A stretch of DNA of 34,033 bases, taken from the NCBI GenBank assembly GCA_945905295.1, contig CAMDPX010000057.1, forward strand, positions 1 through 34,033. Reading direction: 5' to 3'. Under the pieces are notes generated by a model. It did no database searches and was not told the DNA's origin. It saw only the letters and a list, made by a program, of their open reading frames with translations. Shown piece by piece: positions 15,122-33,899 of the stretch. The position numbers and the translations under genes are program-made. This DNA comes from Planctomyces sp. SH-PL62. GTDB lineage: Bacteria > Planctomycetota > Planctomycetia > Planctomycetales > Planctomycetaceae. Every line of letters begins with the position of its first letter. Positions within the stretch are counted from its first letter, which is position 1.

Positions 15122-17023
15122 TCAATCCAGCGTGAACTCTTTGAGGTACTTCTCCAGCGTCTGCTCGGTCGCGTTGGGCTGGTCTTTCTTCAGAAGCACA
15201 AAGCGTTCGAGGACGAGGGTGTCCATGTTGGTCGCGAGGAAGCAGCGGTAGGCGTGTTCGTGGTTCATGACGATCGGCTCGCCGCGGACGTTGAAGCTGG
15301 TGTTGATGAGCACTGGGCTGCCGGTCTGAGCCTCGAACGCTTTCAGCAGCTTGTAGTAGCGGCCGTGACGTTCGGCATCGACGGTTTGGATACGGGCGGA
15401 GTTATCGACGTGAGTCACCGCCGGGATGCACGACCGCAGCTCTTTGAGCTTGTCGATGCCGGTCAGCTTCGGAGCATCCGCCGGTCGTTGGGTTCGCTTC
15501 GACTCGCGCACGTTGGCGACGAGCAGCATGTAAGGCGAGGACTCGTGCGGTCGAGTTTCAAAGTATTCATCGACTCGTTCTTCAAGCACCGATGGAGCGA
15601 ATGGGCGGAAGGACTCGCGGAACTTGATGCGGACATTCATGGCGGATTGCATCTGCGGACTGCGGGCGTCGCCCAGGATGCTGCGGCTGCCGAGTGCTCG
15701 CGGGCCGAACTCCATGCGGCCTTGGACCCAGCCGACGACGTGTTCGTTGGCGATCAGGTTGGCGACGTGCTGGCAGAGTTCGTCGTCGTTGTCGAAGTGG
15801 CGGTACTTCGCTCCCTTCGCGTCGAGGAACTGTTTGATGTCGACTTCATCGCAACGGGGGCCGAGCAGCGAGCCGTGTTGTAAATCGTGGGGCACGTTTT
15901 CAACGTGCCCGTTTTGACGGTGCATTGCGGAGTCTTTGACGGGCACGTTGGAAACGTGCCCCACGAGGCGCGGCCGTCCCAACAACTGATGCCAGACGAA
16001 GAGCGCGGCTCCGAGTGCTCCGCCGGCGTCGCCGGCGGCGGGTTGAATCCATAAGTCCTCGAACGGGCCTTCGCGGAGGATGCGGCCATTCGCCACGCAG
16101 TTGAGCGCGACTCCGCCGGCCAGACAGAGACTCTTCTCGCCAGTGATAGCATGCACGTGGCGTGACATCCGCAACAGGATCTCTTCCGTGACTACTTGGA
16201 TGGATGCGGCAAGATCCATCTCGCGTTGCGTCAGCGGTGATTCCGGTTGTCGTGGTGGTCCGCCGAAGAGTTGGTCGAACTTCTTCGACGTCATCGTCAG
16301 ACCTTGGCAATAGTTGAAGTACGACAGGTCCATGCGGAACGAGCCGTCCTCTTTCAGATCGATCAGCTTCTCACGGATGAGGTCGGCGTACTTCGGTTCG
16401 CCATAGGGGGCGAGTCCCATCAGCTTGTATTCGCCGGAGTTCACCTTGAAGCCGCAGAAGAAAGTGAAGGCCGAATAGAGCAGCCCCGGTGAATGCGGAA
16501 AGTGCATCTCATGCGTCAGCCGCAGTTGGTTCCCTTCACCGATACCGATACTGGCGGTGGCCCATTCGCCGACGCCGTCGACGGTCAGCACGGCGGCATG
16601 CTCGAAGGGGGACGGATAGAACGCGCTGGCGGCGTGGGATTCGTGGTGTTCGGTGAAGACGAATCGTTTTTCGTATCCGGGGAGTTCTCGACGCATCGCG
16701 CGCGGCAGATACAGTTTGTCCTTCAGCCACACCGGCATCGCTTTGACGAAGGAACCGAAGCCGCTCGGCGCGTAGCCGAGATACGTCTCCAGCAGCCGAT
16801 CAAACTTGAGCAGCGGCTTGTCGTAGAACGCGACGTAATCGAGTTGGCTCGGTGTGATCCCCGCGGCGCTCAGGCAGTATTCGACCGCCAGCTTGGGGAA
16901 TCGCTCGTCATGCTTCTTGCGCGAGAAGCGTTCTTCTTGCGCGGCGGCGACGATCTCGCCATCCACGACGAGGCACGCGGCGGAGTCGTGATAGAAAGCG
17001 GAGAGGCCGAGGATACTGGTCAT
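15122..17023 (-). CDS. Carbamoyltransferase (NodU/CmcH/TobZ family)
   Basis: 633 residues, close to the family's usual 550-600 plus an insertion. The ASKHA-like N-terminal domain shows ILGLSAFYHDSAA at the start, HHESHAASAF (from 126), VDGVGEW (148-154) and GGVALNC (303-309). The C-terminal domain has GRMEFGPRALGSRS (435-448) and NTSFNVRGEP. The family transfers carbamoyl from carbamoyl phosphate to hydroxyl groups of sugars or secondary metabolites through a carbamoyl-adenylate; the acceptor is unknown. Residues 354-379 are encoded by a repeat pair inserted between GRPR and LLGP. The frame is open to 17314, but homology starts at the ATG at 17021-17023, only eight bases from another repeat pair, with no Shine-Dalgarno. 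Confidence 0.93.
   Translation of the reverse strand: MTSILGLSAFYHDSAACLVVDGEIVAAAQEERFSRKKHDERFPKLAVEYCLSAAGITPSQLDYVAFYDKPLLKFDRLLETYLGYAPSGFGSFVKAMPVWLKDKLYLPRAMRRELPGYEKRFVFTEHHESHAASAFYPSPFEHAAVLTVDGVGEWATASIGIGEGNQLRLTHEMHFPHSPGLLYSAFTFFCGFKVNSGEYKLMGLAPYGEPKYADLIREKLIDLKEDGSFRMDLSYFNYCQGLTMTSKKFDQLFGGPPRQPESPLTQREMDLAASIQVVTEEILLRMSRHVHAITGEKSLCLAGGVALNCVANGRILREGPFEDLWIQPAAGDAGGALGAALFVWHQLLGRPRLVGHVSNVPVKDSAMHRQNGHVENVPHDLQHGSLLGPRCDEVDIKQFLDAKGAKYRHFDNDDELCQHVANLIANEHVVGWVQGRMEFGPRALGSRSILGDARSPQMQSAMNVRIKFRESFRPFAPSVLEERVDEYFETRPHESSPYMLLVANVRESKRTQRPADAPKLTGIDKLKELRSCIPAVTHVDNSARIQTVDAERHGRYYKLLKAFEAQTGSPVLINTSFNVRGEPIVMNHEHAYRCFLATNMDTLVLERFVLLKKDQPNATEQTLEKYLKEFTLD
15886..15965. 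repeat. Family A hairpin pair inside the carbamoyltransferase gene
   Basis: Arms 15886-15911 and 15940-15965, separated by 28 bases. Each arm is a 9-bp-stem hairpin with TTC/TCC-type loop. Translated in the host frame the pair gives VGHVSNVP and GHVENVPH. It sits at the junction of the two domains. Confidence 0.92.
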
Positions 17024-17030
17024 GGATTTG

Positions 17031-17094
17031 TTCGTGGGGCACGTTTTCAACGTGCCGAGGATGGAACGGGCACGTTGAAAACGTGCCCCACGAA
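17031..17094. repeat. Family A hairpin pair next to the carbamoyltransferase start
   Basis: Arms 17031-17056 and 17067-17094; the outer ends TTCGTGGGG and CCCCACGAA pair exactly. The unit begins eight bases upstream of the carbamoyltransferase ATG, so it occupies the place of a ribosome-binding site and lies in the mRNA leader. Confidence 0.88.
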
Positions 17095-18674: not shown

Positions 18675-18870
18675 TTGCCGGAAGTTTCCTGCGGTGCAAG
18701 TTTCCGAGACGCCCGATTGATTGATGCGGCGCATTGCCTCATTCGTCGTCTCCTTCAATTCCTCGGGCTCTTAGGATTCCCGACGAATCCAAGGAGAGGA
18801 CGAATGCTGGACCTCCGCCAATTCAAAGTTTTGACCGATCCCTCACTTTTCGATGGTTTTGCCCAGTCAC

Positions 18871-18883
18871 GGAGTTCTTTGTG
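18871..18883 (+). promoter_or_regulatory. Shine-Dalgarno and GTG start of the epimerase gene
   Basis: GGAG at 18871-18874 is six bases before GTG at 18881-18883. The frame is open from 18734, but the extra 49 residues are basic and unlike the family; this site places the start directly before the Rossmann fold. Confidence 0.7.
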
Positions 18884-19894
18884 GTTCTCACTGAAACGGA
18901 TCTCATTCTCGTCACCGGCGCGACCGGACTCGTTGGCAGTCATGTCGCCGAGCAAGCGCGGAAACGCGGCTACAAAGTTCGTGCGATCGTGCGTCAGCCG
19001 AGCCAATGTTTCGATCTCAAAAGCTGGGGCGTCGAACTGGTCGAAGGGGACATGACCAATCGCGAGTCGCTGGTCAACGCGGCGAAAGGGGCGACGGTCA
19101 TCATTCACTGCGCAGCGAAGGTCGGCGATTGGGGACCGACCGACGACTATCGCACGGTCAACGTCGAGGGCCTGCGGCATCTGCTCGCTGCGGCGGAGTC
19201 GAGCGGTTTGCTGAAGCGGTTCGTCCACATCAGTTCGTTGGGGGTGTATCCCGCTTGCGACCACTTCGGTACGGATGAGTTCACACCGGTCAGCATGACC
19301 GGAATCGACGGCTACACGCTCACGAAGGTCGAGGCCGAGAATCTCGTGCGGGACCACATCCGAGATCACCGGCTGCCGGCCGTGATTCTGCGGCCCGGTT
19401 TCATCTACGGCCCGCGCGATCGCACGATCCTGCCGAAAGTTTTGGCGCGTCTCAAAAGTGGCGGCTTCAAGTTTCTCGGTGACGGACGGCAACTGCTCAA
19501 CAACACCTATGTCGGCAATCTCGTTGCGGCGATCTTCTTGGCGATTGAGAAAGACGATGTCGTCGGCGAGCTGTTTAATGTCACCGACGGCCGCTTGGTC
19601 TCGCGCCGTGAGTTCATCGGCACGATTTGCGAATCCGCCGGACTGTCGACTCCAACCAAGTGCGTGCCGCTGCCGGTTGCCAAATCACTGGCCAAGGTGA
19701 TGGAAGCTGTCTACCGCCTGTTGGGCAAACAAGAAGCTCCGCTGCTGTCGAGCGCCCGCATCAAGTTCCTGGCACTGAATCTGGACTACAGCATCGACAA
19801 AGCTCGGCGATTGCTGGGATACGACCCGCCGACGGATTTCAGCGATGCGATGCGAACGACCGTGGCGTGGTGCCGCGAGGCGGGACTGACGTAG
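18881..19894 (+). CDS. NAD(P)-dependent epimerase/dehydratase (extended SDR, 3-beta-HSD-like)
   Basis: 337 residues from the GTG start. The Rossmann motif TGATGLVG (12-19), HISSLGVY (116-123) with the catalytic Ser, and the catalytic YTLTK (Tyr145, Lys149) identify an extended short-chain dehydrogenase. RPGFIYGPRD and NNTYVGNL are typical of the substrate-binding part of NAD-dependent epimerases and 3-beta-hydroxysteroid-dehydrogenase-like reductases. It acts in the cytosol on a sugar nucleotide, sterol-like or other secondary alcohol; which one is not evident. The stop codon is the TAG of the GTAG that starts the nested repeat unit. It follows the TPR gene by 206 bases on the same strand. 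Confidence 0.88.
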   Translation: MVLTETDLILVTGATGLVGSHVAEQARKRGYKVRAIVRQPSQCFDLKSWGVELVEGDMTNRESLVNAAKGATVIIHCAAKVGDWGPTDDYRTVNVEGLRHLLAAAESSGLLKRFVHISSLGVYPACDHFGTDEFTPVSMTGIDGYTLTKVEAENLVRDHIRDHRLPAVILRPGFIYGPRDRTILPKVLARLKSGGFKFLGDGRQLLNNTYVGNLVAAIFLAIEKDDVVGELFNVTDGRLVSRREFIGTICESAGLSTPTKCVPLPVAKSLAKVMEAVYRLLGKQEAPLLSSARIKFLALNLDYSIDKARRLLGYDPPTDFSDAMRTTVAWCREAGLT

Positions 19895-20054
19895 CCTGAC
19901 TCTCCGAGGCTGTGAACTTTTTGGTAGCTGAAGTCGCCAGACTTCAGCATTCGCCGTGAAATCTGAACTCTGGTGAGTCCAGCTACCAATTCTTTCACAG
20001 GCTCTCCGAGTCGGGAATGTTCCGTAGAATGACCCGACTCGGAGAGTCAGGCTA
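19891..20054. repeat. GTAG hairpin pair interrupted by another pair
   Basis: The right arm (20031-20054) is intact; read on the minus strand it starts GTAGCCTGACTCTCCGAG and goes on TCGGGT. The left arm has the same sequence but is split after GAG at 19908 and resumes at 20011 (TCGGG). The first GTAG supplies the epimerase stop codon. The interruption is the element at 19909-20001. Confidence 0.88.
19909..20001. mobile_element. 93-bp hairpin-pair element flanked by a 9-bp duplication
   Basis: Terminal inverted repeats CTGTGAA (19910-19916 and reverse complement at 19994-20000) enclose two GTAG hairpins with stems CTGAAGTC/GACTTCAG and, on the other strand, CTGGACTC/GAGTTCAG, which differ by a compensatory pair. 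CTCTCCGAG occurs at 19900-19908 and again at 20002-20010, as expected of a target-site duplication, because it restores the outer arm exactly when one copy and the element are removed. Confidence 0.8.
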
Positions 20055-20087
20055 CGAATCGATCGGCACACTCGATAGCTTGGCGAC

Positions 20088-20381: not shown

Positions 20382-20463
20382 GGTCAAGATTCAATGACGA
20401 ATGACGAAATAGCCGGTTAGAATCCGACTTCGTTAGCCCGCACACGGGGGACATCGACACAAA

Positions 20464-20577
20464 CCCCACCGAGCTTGCCTCGGTGGTTCCAGGCTTTTGC
20501 ACTACGCGACGCAGGACTCAATTCCTCAATCATTCGTAGTGCAAAGGCCCGTTTCCACCGAGGCAAGCTCGGTGGGG
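20464..20577. repeat. GTAG double-hairpin pair, family C
   Basis: Outer arms CCACCGAG-GCAAG-CTCGGTGG at 20464-20486 and, inverted, 20555-20577; inner GTAGTGCAAA-type motifs at 20495-20506 (inverted) and 20536-20545. GACATC occurs on both sides (20450-20455 and 20583-20588), a possible short target duplication. It sits about 60 bases upstream of the SPFH gene. Relatives are at 24176-24289 and 33796-33899. Confidence 0.88.
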
Positions 20578-20639
20578 TTTGTGACATCCTCACCCGCGCG
20601 GGAGATATCCCGTCACTTTTCCGTTCTGGAGATCACATC

Positions 20640-21740: not shown

Positions 21741-21777
21741 GAGGATTGAGTGCGGTTGTCGTGACCGCACTCACTTC

Positions 21778-21917
21778 GCACACGGATGCGAGAGGCGCAC
21801 ACGGATGGAATCGGAGCGAAGGATTCGTCGATCCGTGTGCGCCTCTCGCATCCGTGTGCGCCTCTCGCATCCGTGTGCGCCTCTCGCATCCGTGTGCGCC
21901 TCTCGCATCCGTGTGCG
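21778..21917. repeat. 19-bp tandem repeat array with inverted copies
   Basis: Four full copies of ATCCGTGTGCGCCTCTCGC at 21831-21906 and a partial fifth copy at 21907-21917. About one and a half copies in inverted orientation lie at 21778-21807, so the whole can fold into a long hairpin with alternative registers. It fills the gap between the SPFH and zinc-ribbon genes. It is open on the minus strand and creates repetitive false reading frames. Confidence 0.92.
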
Positions 21918-21978
21918 AAGGACGGACGCAACACTTTCCGATCCGCAATCCCAATTCAGGTAACCCCGGAGTCGATCC

Positions 21979-23287: not shown

Positions 23288-24705
23288 TGGCCCGCTGGTG
23301 GGCCATCGCGGGACTGACGCTGCTCGCCGCGACGTGGCAACTGTGGACTCCGCAGACTGAGTTCCCGCAAGTGCCGTTGTTCGGCTGGGCCGAATCGCTG
23401 CCGTTGTTTGTCGATTGGCTGGCGTTCGGTGTTCTGCTGGCGGCGTTGATGTTCGCGACCTGGAAACCCGATTCGCGACGAAGTTGGTTGGCGTTTGTCG
23501 TCTCGATAAGCGTGTTGATCGTCCTCGACCAGCACCGACTTCAGCCGTGGGCGTGGCAACTGCTGTTGATGGCGATTGTCTACGCGAACTTTCAGGCGAG
23601 CGGGGGGCGTCAGTCCCCCGGTTTGATCGAGTCAGATCAACGCCCCACCAGGGTGCTGACGCCCAATGGCACTTACTTTGAGCGGAATGGCGCTAGCCAC
23701 CGGTGTTGTGGGTGCGATGTTCCTCGCGAAATACCGGCGGCTAGCGCCTCGCCGCTCACTAAAGTGAGTGCCATTGGGCTGCCGCCCCCCGCTCGCCTGC
23801 TGCGAGTTTTGACCATCAGCATTTATTTCTGGTCTGCCGTATCGAAATTCGATGCGGGTTTCTACGCCTCGCACGGACAGACGTTGGTCGAGGCCCTGTT
23901 TCAATCGGTGAGTATCAACGCGGCTGGTTGGCCGGCGAGCGTGAAGTGGTGGTTGGCATTCTCACTTCCTCTTGCCGAGTTGTTTGTGGCCGTCGGCTTG
24001 TGTTGGCCGCGCACACGGCGAGCGGCGCTGATTGCGGCGACGGCGCTGCACGTTGGACTGATCCTCGCCTTGGGACCGACGGGCTTGGGACATCGGCCCG
24101 GCGTGTTGTTGTGGAACATCGCATTCATCGGCCACGACTGGTTGCTGTTCGGAGCGCGAGCGAACAGCTCTGATACCCCGCCGAGCTTGTCTCGGTGGTT
24201 CCGGGCCTTTGCACTACGAGCCTCTGCACTCGAATCGTCAATTGCCGTAGTGCAGAGGCCTGAAAACCACCGAGGCAAGCTCGGTGGGGTCGGATGTGTG
24301 TCGGTCATCCTCTTCGCGTGCGTGTGGCCGATCACGGGGCGGTGGGGCCTGTGCGATCATTGGCTGGCGTGGAGCGTGTACTCGACGCGGATTGAGCGGG
24401 TTGGTGTGACGCTGACCGACGAAGGTGTGCGACGATTACCAGAGTCGGCTCGACGACTCGCGGCGGATGGTGAGCTGTGGCTGGATCGCTGGTCGCTCGC
24501 GGCGCTGGAGGTGCCGGTTTATCCGCAGTTGCGGTTTCAGTTCGGTGTTGTTGAGGGACTTCGGCAACGATGTGGCACGGACAATCTTGTTGAGGTCAAC
24601 GTGCAGCGCTCTCAGCGCGACGGTGGCGCGTTTGAGCGTCTGACGGTTGAGCAGTTCGATGAACGGAGCCGTGCGTTCTGGATCAACACGCGGCCGCGCC
24701 CGTAG
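23215..24705 (+). CDS. DoxX/HTTM-like integral membrane protein with in-frame repeat insertions
   Basis: 496 residues as read. Several transmembrane stretches (for example WWAIAGLTLLAATW, LAFGVLLAALMFATW, WWLAFSLPLAELFVAVGL, LIAATALHVGLILAL) and the segment ISIYFWSAVSKFDAGFY, like that of DoxX, MauE and HTTM-type proteins, are native. A C-terminal soluble part (about 380-496) has no family I can name. Two stretches are repeat-derived: residues about 128-195 (203-bp nested unit) and about 321-359. The start is uncertain, since every candidate ATG is in a repeat loop; I give the first, but 23251 is equally possible. The stop is the TAG of another repeat. It may be a working protein with loop insertions or a decaying gene that stayed open. 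Confidence 0.72.
   Translation: MVIGRLMASCLSMVQCRPEKDSRPLARWWAIAGLTLLAATWQLWTPQTEFPQVPLFGWAESLPLFVDWLAFGVLLAALMFATWKPDSRRSWLAFVVSISVLIVLDQHRLQPWAWQLLLMAIVYANFQASGGRQSPGLIESDQRPTRVLTPNGTYFERNGASHRCCGCDVPREIPAASASPLTKVSAIGLPPPARLLRVLTISIYFWSAVSKFDAGFYASHGQTLVEALFQSVSINAAGWPASVKWWLAFSLPLAELFVAVGLCWPRTRRAALIAATALHVGLILALGPTGLGHRPGVLLWNIAFIGHDWLLFGARANSSDTPPSLSRWFRAFALRASALESSIAVVQRPENHRGKLGGVGCVSVILFACVWPITGRWGLCDHWLAWSVYSTRIERVGVTLTDEGVRRLPESARRLAADGELWLDRWSLAALEVPVYPQLRFQFGVVEGLRQRCGTDNLVEVNVQRSQRDGGAFERLTVEQFDERSRAFWINTRPRP
23595..23797. repeat. Nested inverted repeats inside the membrane-protein gene
   Basis: Outer arms GGCGAGCGGGGGGCG (23595 onward) and its inverse ending at 23797 belong to family B. 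Nested inside is a second pair: CCCAATGGCACTTACTTT...GGCGCTAGCCACCGG on the left and an inverted copy with substitutions (TCACTTTAGTGAG, GCTAGCCGCCGG) on the right. The whole is stop-free in the host frame. Confidence 0.82.
24176..24289. repeat. Family C double-hairpin pair inside the membrane-protein gene
   Basis: Outer arms 24176-24198 and 24267-24289, inner GTAGTGCA motifs around 24215 (inverted) and 24247. It is translated as a segment containing RWFRAFALRA and HRGKLGGVG, the same frame that is open upstream of the SPFH gene at 20475. Confidence 0.9.
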
Positions 24706-29281: not shown

Positions 29282-31744
29282 TCAATTCGCTTCGGCATCG
29301 GCGGTCGCGTGTCCGCCGCGCACCAGTTTTCGAGTCATCAGCACCTCGCCCACCAGCAGCGCGAGGAACGCCAGAAACAACAGTTGCCAGAGTTCGTGGC
29401 GCGGCAGTTCGTTGGAAGCGGCGGCCTGAATCTCGCGAGCCTCGCGAATGAATTGCAGTCGCTCGTCGGCGGTGATCGATGCGATTTGCTCATCGGTCAA
29501 CGGCGTGAGATTGGACTCCGCCCGATCGGCGTTGACGACGAATAATTCACGACCCGGCGCGGCGAGCGGCTTCACGGGTTTGTTCTTCTCAGGCGCGACC
29601 GCCTGGCCCGACAGGCGCTGCTCGTCAGCCGGCTCTTTGCGTCGCAGCGAGTAAACGCCCGGCAGAGACGTGTCGTCGAGGATCAACAACTGCGAGGCCC
29701 CCTCGCCGCGGAGTTTCGCTTCGCGTGGCTCGCCGTCCGGTCCTTCAAAGACGAAGGCCGTTGGAGTTCCGCCGTCCGCCGGCTTATCAGACGGCGGGAG
29801 TGATCCGACCAACGGTTGTCCCACCGCGACGTTTCGTTCGCCGCGCCGCGATGCGAGCTGAAACAACCACTCATGCACGAACGCCACGAAATCCGGCTTG
29901 GCCAGCAGCGTGCTCCAGTCAGCATCCAACGGTGAGGTCAGCAACATCACGTTTCCGCGGCCGTATTGACCACCGATCAGATACGGCGCGCCGGTCTGCA
30001 ACCGCGCCAGAACGACGGCTGGCCGGCGTTCGCCCTCGTCCTTCTCCGAGTCGTCATCTGGCCGGGGGGCTTCACCTTCTTCGGCCTTCTTCTGTTTGTC
30101 CTCCACCATCTGCACCTTCCACCAACGACTGAATCGCGCGGTCGTGAACGCGGCACCACGCTCGGCACGGAAGCGTTGCAGCCACGGCGATTCGAGCGTC
30201 GGATTCGCAATGAACACTCCTTGCTCACGATGCTCGGCCGGTTCGGATTCGATCTCAACCAACGACACGCCGAGCAAGCCCGTCTCTGCCGCGAAGAGCT
30301 GGCTGTTGTAGCGATCCTTCTCGACCCGATTGCCCAGCGCGAGCCCGACTCCACCACCCCGCTTCGTGTAGTCGGCCAGCGCGGCGAACTGAGCGTCGGT
30401 CAGTTGCGGCACATTCGCCAGCACGACCGTCGCGTACTTGTCGAGTTCGTTTTTCTCGTGGGGCACGTTTTCAACGTGCCCGTCCTTTGGGTTCGCTTTT
30501 GGAGCATCTCCGGGCACGTTGGAAACGTGCCCCACGTTCCATTCGGACCACTTCACAACGGTCGGTTTGACCCACGGCGTGTCGTTGCCACTTGCGGCGA
30601 GCGCGGCACGCACGAAGAACGTTTCGCTCTGGACCGGATCGGGACGCGGATCGCCATCGACCAGTAACACCGGCAGTGCTTCCGTCACGACGATCACCGC
30701 TTCGCTCGTGTTGTCGGTCGGCAAGTCATCGGCATCGAGAGCGACTCGGACGAGATGCGAACCCGTACTCTCGAAGCGATGCTCGAACTCGACGTTCGCT
30801 TCTCCCCCCGGCGCGAGCGTCACGGAGACCGTGCGTTCGGCGAGACGTTGCCCATCGACCTCAAAATGCACTTGCCGAGTCACGTTGGTCGAACCGCCGC
30901 TGAAGCGGACTCGCGATTGAACACGCACGGGAAAGCCGGGCACCGATAACTCGCGCGACGGCTGCAAGCGCTCGACGTGGAAGTTCAATCGCTCGGCCGA
31001 AGGGGGCAATTCCTGGTCATCGCCGGCACCGGCGGCGAGCACGTTGACGACCCACAAATGCGGCGTGACCGACGACTGCTTCCGCAGATCATCCAGCCGC
31101 AACCAGAGATTCGAGTCCTCGGAGAACCAACCTTGCGCCTGCCCATCGGTCAGCAGGATGACCTCACGCCGCAGGTGATTCGTCCGGCTGAGCAGTTTGA
31201 CCGCGTGAGCCAGCGACTCCGGAAAATTCGCCGTTCCGGCCGGCGGCGGCAGTCGCTTGAGCACGTCGCGCACGCGGTCCATATCGCGTGTCGGCGGGTC
31301 GATCAACGTGCGAACTTGCTCGCGAGCTTCCAGCAGCGTGACCGTGTCCCCCGGCCGAAGCCGACTCAAGAACTTGTCGATCCAACGCACCGATAACTCT
31401 TGCGGCGTGACCGATGTCGCCTCCCAAGCCGTGCTGTACGAGCCATCGAGAATGATCACCACATCGCGATTCGGCTGTGGCCCGATATCACCCAGCCACC
31501 TCGCGCTCACCCACGGCCGAGCCAACGCGATCGCCAACCACACGATCAACGCCATCCGCAGCAACAGCAGCCACAAGTCTTCCAGCCACACACGTCGCCG
31601 AGTCTCCTGGCCCAGCTTGAGAAACTGCATCGCGCCCCAAGAGACGATGTCGTACTTCTTCTTACTCAACAGATGCGCGATCACCGGCAAGGCGACGCCC
31701 GCCAAACCTGCCAGCATCCACGGATTGAGCAGTTCAAAAGACAT
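29282..31744 (-). CDS. BatA/vWA membrane protein
   Basis: 820 residues. The N-terminus is the BatA-type membrane region (LLNPWMLAGLAGVALPVIAHLL, helix 1; LLLLRMALIVWLAIALARPW, about 59-78). A von Willebrand A domain follows with MIDAS residues D100-G-S102-Y-S104 and LLTDG near 198. Next come a beta-rich region and a class-I glutamine-amidotransferase-like domain (about 365-620) and a C-terminal helix (about 783-803, LWQLLFLAFLALLVGEVLM). Such proteins usually lie with MoxR and DUF58 genes and are thought to act in envelope assembly; neither is here. Residues about 403-430 are repeat-encoded. ATG at 31742-31744 directly abuts a repeat, with no Shine-Dalgarno. Last gene of a three-gene minus-strand cluster. 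Confidence 0.88.
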   Translation of the reverse strand: MSFELLNPWMLAGLAGVALPVIAHLLSKKKYDIVSWGAMQFLKLGQETRRRVWLEDLWLLLLRMALIVWLAIALARPWVSARWLGDIGPQPNRDVVIILDGSYSTAWEATSVTPQELSVRWIDKFLSRLRPGDTVTLLEAREQVRTLIDPPTRDMDRVRDVLKRLPPPAGTANFPESLAHAVKLLSRTNHLRREVILLTDGQAQGWFSEDSNLWLRLDDLRKQSSVTPHLWVVNVLAAGAGDDQELPPSAERLNFHVERLQPSRELSVPGFPVRVQSRVRFSGGSTNVTRQVHFEVDGQRLAERTVSVTLAPGGEANVEFEHRFESTGSHLVRVALDADDLPTDNTSEAVIVVTEALPVLLVDGDPRPDPVQSETFFVRAALAASGNDTPWVKPTVVKWSEWNVGHVSNVPGDAPKANPKDGHVENVPHEKNELDKYATVVLANVPQLTDAQFAALADYTKRGGGVGLALGNRVEKDRYNSQLFAAETGLLGVSLVEIESEPAEHREQGVFIANPTLESPWLQRFRAERGAAFTTARFSRWWKVQMVEDKQKKAEEGEAPRPDDDSEKDEGERRPAVVLARLQTGAPYLIGGQYGRGNVMLLTSPLDADWSTLLAKPDFVAFVHEWLFQLASRRGERNVAVGQPLVGSLPPSDKPADGGTPTAFVFEGPDGEPREAKLRGEGASQLLILDDTSLPGVYSLRRKEPADEQRLSGQAVAPEKNKPVKPLAAPGRELFVVNADRAESNLTPLTDEQIASITADERLQFIREAREIQAAASNELPRHELWQLLFLAFLALLVGEVLMTRKLVRGGHATADAEAN
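30457..30536. repeat. Family A hairpin pair inside the BatA/vWA gene
   Basis: Arms 30457-30482 and 30511-30536, 28-base spacer, the same arm and spacer lengths as at 15886-15965 though the spacer sequence differs. It is translated VGHVSNVPG and GHVENVPH. Confidence 0.92.
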
Positions 31745-33684: not shown

Positions 33685-33795
33685 GACGACGCCGGGGCAA
33701 AAAACGGGATAACGGCATTCGGCGAGAGACCGATCGCCGATTAGGACTCCGCAACACGCTGTAGAATTAGTCCTCACCCAAGCGATGTTTGCAAA

Positions 33796-33899
33796 CCCCA
33801 CCGAGCTTGCCTCGGCGGATTCGGGCTTTTGCACTACTCGGCGATTCACTCGAAATCATGGTCGACGTAGTGCAAAAGCCCGCTAACCACCGAGGCAAG
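33796..33899. repeat. Family C double-hairpin pair, right arm interrupted
   Basis: Left arm 33796-33818 is complete; the GTAGTGCAAAAGCC inner motif is near 33867-33880; the right arm begins at 33887 and stops after GAGGCAAG at 33899, where the MITE-like element starts. The missing remainder, CTCGGTGGGG, is at 138-147. Confidence 0.85.

Follow-up and report, generated by a model that had tools for sequence, protein, structure and literature searches.

A 97-bp element in the window (the whole 34,033-nucleotide stretch analysed here) is very probably a non-autonomous mini-transposon (MITE) of an IS1182-family insertion sequence (IS), mobilised in trans by an IS1182 DDE transposase into hairpin loops that carry CTCCG. 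The terminal inverted repeats, made up of AGNCTGTGAA and a looser inner part, would be the substrate of the transposase, and a head-to-head pair of REP hairpins would be the cargo. Acting in trans, the enzyme would direct the MITE into other palindromes, most of them GTAG-tagged REPs, at the CTCCG of their loop, and the insertion would duplicate the five loop bases. A first-pass annotation of this DNA had suggested movement as a MITE by a DDE transposase rather than by a RAYT enzyme, and that suggestion is now well supported, since other copies also have duplications and an IS of the IS1182 family shares the ends.

Structure of the insertion

The nested arrangement at 19891–20054, described in the first-pass annotation as one hairpin pair within another, is borne out by the window sequence, where a REP-dimer element sits inside another REP hairpin (Table 1). 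Fusing the flanks with a single CTCCG gives CGTAGCCTGACTCTCCGAGTCGGG, which is exact over 24 bp to the reverse complement of the partner REP; the match had been described correctly, while the partner's position (given as 20031–20054) was off by 2. The insertion lies directly 3' of an epimerase-family gene (18734–19894), the TAG stop of which falls within the GTAG tag of the target REP.

Table 1. Features of the nested insertion (window coordinates).
Feature	Position	Strand	Remarks
Left half of target REP hairpin	19890..19906	+	GTAG tag at 19891-19894; ends in the left CTCCG
Left CTCCG of the 5-bp target duplication	19902..19906	+	
97-bp putative IS1182-type MITE, family 1, orientation F	19907..20003	+	AGGCTGTGAA...TTCACAGGCT; copies in contigs C166 and C132 identical over the 93-bp query
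Left terminal inverted repeat, AGGCTGTGAACTTTTTG	19907..19923	+	
Cargo REP dimer (BIME/REPIN-like), GTAG tags outward, GTAGCTGAAGTCGCCAGACTTCAG ... CTGAACTCTGGTGAGTCCAGCTAC	19924..19986	+	
Right terminal inverted repeat, reverse complement AGCCTGTGAAAGAATTG	19987..20003	-	Compare IS left end AGCCTGTGAAACAATTGA
Right CTCCG of the target duplication	20004..20008	+	
Right half of interrupted target REP, AGTCGGG	20009..20015	+	
Intact partner REP of outer dimer	20033..20056	-	Exact reverse complement of the restored target; the appearance of an empty site

The inserted unit had been taken as 93 bp with a target duplication of 9 bp, and both values need correction. The 9-mer CTCTCCGAG is present on either side (19900–19908 and 20002–20010), an apparent duplication that arises because the AG/CT ends of the element coincide with the target GACT-CTCCG-AGTC. 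Only CTCCG is common to the copies, and it alone is duplicated where the target differs from ACTCTCCGAGT, as in L138 and in L085 (TTGATC-CTCCG ... CTCCG-CTTACC). The duplication is therefore 5 bp and the unit 97 bp. CTGTGAA, previously named as the terminal repeat, is indeed found at both ends of the unit, and these are its two occurrences in the window, while the full ends are longer, comprising AGNCTGTGAA.

The unit has no coding capacity and is below the limit of ∼300 bp for MITEs. Its cargo folds with a z of -7.1 into two inverted, GTAG-tagged hairpins. A search of Rfam gave no family match across the region, and the plasmid collection gave none either. A REPIN moved by a RAYT ends at its tags and leaves no duplication; here the unit reaches 17 bp past each GTAG tag, and the duplicated CTCCG lies outside it. 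A free dimer resembling the cargo, without CTGTGAA-type ends, is present elsewhere (L041).

Copies in the genome and their targets

The assembly (G000) to which the window belongs, as contig C57, comprises 8.6 Mb in 476 contigs, and copies in it were counted from fetched regions together with the results of a similarity search and of two end patterns. There are about 112 readable copies, 68 of family 1 (the unit in the window) and 44 of family 2, the interior of which (CGTGGGGCACGTTTTCAACGTGCCC...) is unrelated to that of family 1; the two families have identical ends and length. The unit with its two CTCCG spans 107 bp in 75 of 78 exact end pairs, so that both families are 97 bp long. The 15-mer CTCCGAGNCTGTGAA has 97 matches in the genome and its reversed control none, a copy number far beyond chance. 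Mean identity to the consensus is 98.4% in family 1 and 97.7% in family 2, and between the CTGTGAA repeats 22 copies of family 1 do not differ at all, which suggests that the MITEs may have spread recently. A few further copies are degenerate (L140, L162, L239–L241).

The first-pass annotation had pointed to the flanks of other copies as a check on its reading, and identical CTCCG pentamers do flank both sides of 93/112 copies, with CTCCG at the left in 107/112 and at the right in 98/112. (The 111 tabulated copies give 106, 97 and 92 for left, right and both; the family-2 copy L141 adds one to each.) Beyond the pentamer, the outer bases follow the target and the inner bases are mostly AGN and NCT. 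Three GTAG-tagged REP types account for 51, 29 and 19 of the 111 targets; the other 12 include some non-REP sequences. When the sites are restored, at least 5 of 7 positions around CTCCG form Watson-Crick pairs in 100/111, compared with 24/459 for control CTCCG sites elsewhere in the window and in 30 loci, and what is recognised at the target is probably a hairpin or cruciform. A further 217 hairpins matching GWCWCTCCGWGWC are intact, with a single CTCCG, and the reversed pattern gives 4. In L004 a family-1 and a family-2 MITE stand back to back with three copies of CTCCG, as expected if every insertion adds one.

L238, from a genome of the same genus (G007), carries the variant pentamer CTCTG on both sides. 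This single case argues for a pentamer that comes from the target by duplication instead of belonging to the element. Three copies (L005, L037 and one in L151) pair CTCCG at one flank with CGGAG at the opposite flank. They look as if the segment separating the two REPs of a target dimer had been lost, through recombination or through the stem-loop replacement reported for IS1272, and could be replacements of the latter type. Such a replacement removes the stem-loop and leaves no duplication; the bulk of the copies, with a duplication in 93/112, differ from it. L151 itself (G000:C117:17743-18082) is made up of three repeats of a REP plus MITE unit, with a period of 127 bp.

This array and the inverted flanks of L005 and L037 suggest that recombination does occur, and one might ask whether nesting arose by recombination among REP repeats with no transposition at all. 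That is extremely improbable, given boundaries that agree to the nucleotide across about 112 differently flanked sites, the single-copy, non-REP targets of L085 and L138, and the many intact empty hairpins.

IS1182 relatives and the polarity of insertion

An IS with CTGTGAA ends had also been proposed as worth seeking, and one is found in a genome of the same genus (G011), where locus L207 (public contig QWQF01000236.1) holds a complete IS of 1706 bp (150–1855), flanked as CTCCG | AGCCTGTGAAACAATTGA ... TCAATTGATTCACAGACT | CTCCG. Its left end is the sole match to CTCCGAGNCTGTGAA in that genome. The transposase belongs to the IS1182 family (NCBIfam NF033551, 348 bits against a cut-off of 270), with matches to Pfam DDE domains. 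AGNCTGTGAA is common to the ends of the MITEs and of IS1182 elements; the best inner-end match to AGCCTGTGAAACAATTGA is 18/18 (L205, in G005), and the right end in the window matches at 16/18.

A contig search gave 4 relatives of the L207 transposase. Among the IS1182 elements, L232 has a duplicated CGGAG at the centre of ATCACG-CGGAG-CGTGAT, and L208 is similar with one mismatch (CGGAG/CGAAG between AACC and GGTT). L210, L219 and L233 each have one readable end, which adjoins CTCCG. L218 (CACAG) and L234 (CTCAG) are exceptions at one end, and the more distant IS1182 elements otherwise retain these ends and this target. The duplication is the same in MITEs and IS, being CTCCG in L207, CGGAG in L232 and CTCCG in most MITEs. 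From these shared ends and duplications we infer that an IS1182 transposase of this kind moved the copies. The draft of G000 contains no transposase close to that of L207, so that the source is either missing from the draft or lost. This tells against the reading, as a MITE usually shares its genome with its source transposase, although such company does not strictly define one. The one full IS1182 gene of G000 (contig C33) is 27% identical to the L207 transposase, and is ruled out as the source of the MITEs since it has no such ends. A further locus, L202 (G004:C62), has CTCCGAGCCTGTGAAACAATTGATT, similar to the left end of L207, followed by a possible start (MELVPSFAAL) near the contig end. 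This peptide is unlike the L207 transposase and there is no usable ORF; it is perhaps another IS with the same ends.

The elements are strongly oriented. Family 2 has one orientation relative to CTCCG (44:0). In family 1 the ratio of orientations depends on the base that follows CTGTGAA at the GTAGCTGAAGTC side, being 48:5 for C and 1:14 for G, so that the bases just inside the ends appear to set the polarity. A near-fixed polarity is not explained by transposition with equivalent ends and is unusual for DDE transposition of an element with symmetric ends; it is the best argument for a Y1 enzyme or a recombinase.

A RAYT or IS200-type Y1 (HUH) enzyme might insert the single-stranded REP dimer 3' of CTCCG, the right CTCCG then belonging to the element and no true duplication being made. 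In favour of this, Y1 elements typically have a fixed orientation, as seen here relative to CTCCG; REPs serve as both cargo and targets; and the genome has 13 Y1 matches. This is nevertheless very unlikely, because a terminal inverted repeat of 10–18 bp is common to unrelated cargoes and to a DDE IS with the same flanks, and because of the CTCTG on both sides of L238. At ten Y1 loci fetched of the 13 matches, a CTGTGAA end pair, such as would mark a TIRYT (a Y1 gene flanked by the same inverted repeats), was found in 0/10.

Integration of a circle by a site-specific recombinase (tyrosine, serine or IS110-like), with exchange in a common CTCCG core, would suit the nearly invariant core and fixed orientation, and a hypothetical circle junction would have inverted repeats around CTCCG. 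The same fixed core and polarity brought IS110/IS1111 elements into consideration, and the DDE transposase of L207 disfavours them. With the same ends found on an IS that encodes an IS1182-family DDE enzyme, and with CTCTG in L238 and CACAG or CTCAG at one end of other IS1182 elements, integration by such a recombinase is highly improbable. In our judgement, the ends shared with a DDE IS and the CTCTG case outweigh the argument from polarity, and transposition by an IS1182 enzyme is preferred.

REP dimers as cargo, and known systems

Elements in which these ends enclose different REP dimers occur in other genomes of the genus, a few copies in each, with lengths of 50 to 140 bp. L190, L196, L246 and L186 are variants of family 1 or family 2, and other cargoes are GAGCCGCGACCG (L189), a CACTAC type (L183, L198 and L286), a GCGAGCGGGG type (L201 and L275) and CGTGGGGTAGGC (L247). 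The genus genomes searched, including G000, yielded no end-to-end element free of REP sequence; the 50-bp element of L238 has half a REP dimer. The presence of different REP dimers between the same ends suggests that REP dimers were captured several times, and the capture of REPs by IS1182 ends would thus seem to be recurrent. The most likely route would be the insertion of a REP dimer between two IS ends. Alternatively, the palindromic interior possibly serves to bring the two ends together.

IS1272, an IS1182-family element of staphylococci, is reported to target hairpins or inverted repeats, and to delete or replace the target stem-loop with no duplication and no sequence consensus (PMC4923244, PMC5678879). 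The MITEs described here resemble it in DDE transposase family, short terminal inverted repeats and targets, and differ in that the loop CTCCG is nearly always present and duplicated. Their outcome corresponds to one branch of the model figure for IS1272, the one that leaves a copy of the loop sequence at each end (PMC5678879).

Several IS (IS1397, ISKpn1, ISPsy8, ISPpu9 and others) insert at one fixed point of REPs, ISPsy8 doing so at the symmetry axis of the hairpin with a 3-bp duplication; the families named are IS3, IS110, IS4, IS256 and IS5, with IS1182 absent (PMC1525189). The MITEs share the fixed insertion point, but those are full IS while these carry REP cargo. Dimers of GTAG-tagged or similar hairpins link the MITEs, through their cargo and most of their targets, to REPINs or BIMEs and RAYTs (PMC3116915, PMC2817692, PMC8266576). 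The MITEs differ in that the ends of the mobile unit are IS1182-type inverted repeats reaching 17 bp past the dimer, and in that a duplication is left behind. GTAG REP dimers in Anabaena variabilis and others lie regularly inside a conserved palindrome, itself not observed without a REP, which was read as the target of the REP (PMC3733652). Here the flanking palindrome is the end of a putative DDE element, and by analogy a similar reading might apply in Anabaena variabilis. A non-exhaustive literature search found no title or abstract that joins IS1182 with REPs or MITEs.

The spread of REPs is usually explained through RAYT enzymes. In the present case REP dimers would be cargo of a DDE mini-transposon that inserts mostly into other REPs, so that a second class of enzyme, unrelated to RAYTs, could spread, nest and disrupt REP families. 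A wider proposal, offered tentatively, is that an IS1182 subgroup reads the loop of a hairpin or cruciform by its structure and by CTCCG, with fixed polarity and duplication of the loop, and that REP dimers repeatedly exploit it as cargo since their palindrome helps to join the ends; REP families would then spread by a DDE enzyme besides RAYTs. The roughly 112 copies offer ample natural data on the structure-directed transposition proposed for the IS1182 family, and palindromes flanking REP dimers in other bacteria could merit re-examination as IS ends.

Other repeats were also seen. At L181, L192 and L199 of a genome from another genus (G017), CTCCGAGGCTGTGAAT precedes a REP-like dimer, but a right end to match is absent, and the sequence may be a relic with one end. 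The window has free REP dimers of the CGTGGGGCACGTT type, resembling the family-2 cargo, at 15885–15966 (without CTGTGAA ends), 17032–17093 and 30456–30537. Another REP-dimer family (CCACCGAG...CACTAC) is found at 20434–20607, 24154–24290 and 33792–33899, and the elements at L183 and L198 have a dimer of this kind between IS1182-type ends. A 19-bp repeat, ATCCGTGTGCGCCTCTCGC, is arranged in tandem at 21774–21925 with an inverted copy close by. The contig ends (1–116 and 33918–34033) are identical over 116 bp, indicating a circular molecule, an assembly overlap or a repeat shared by the ends.
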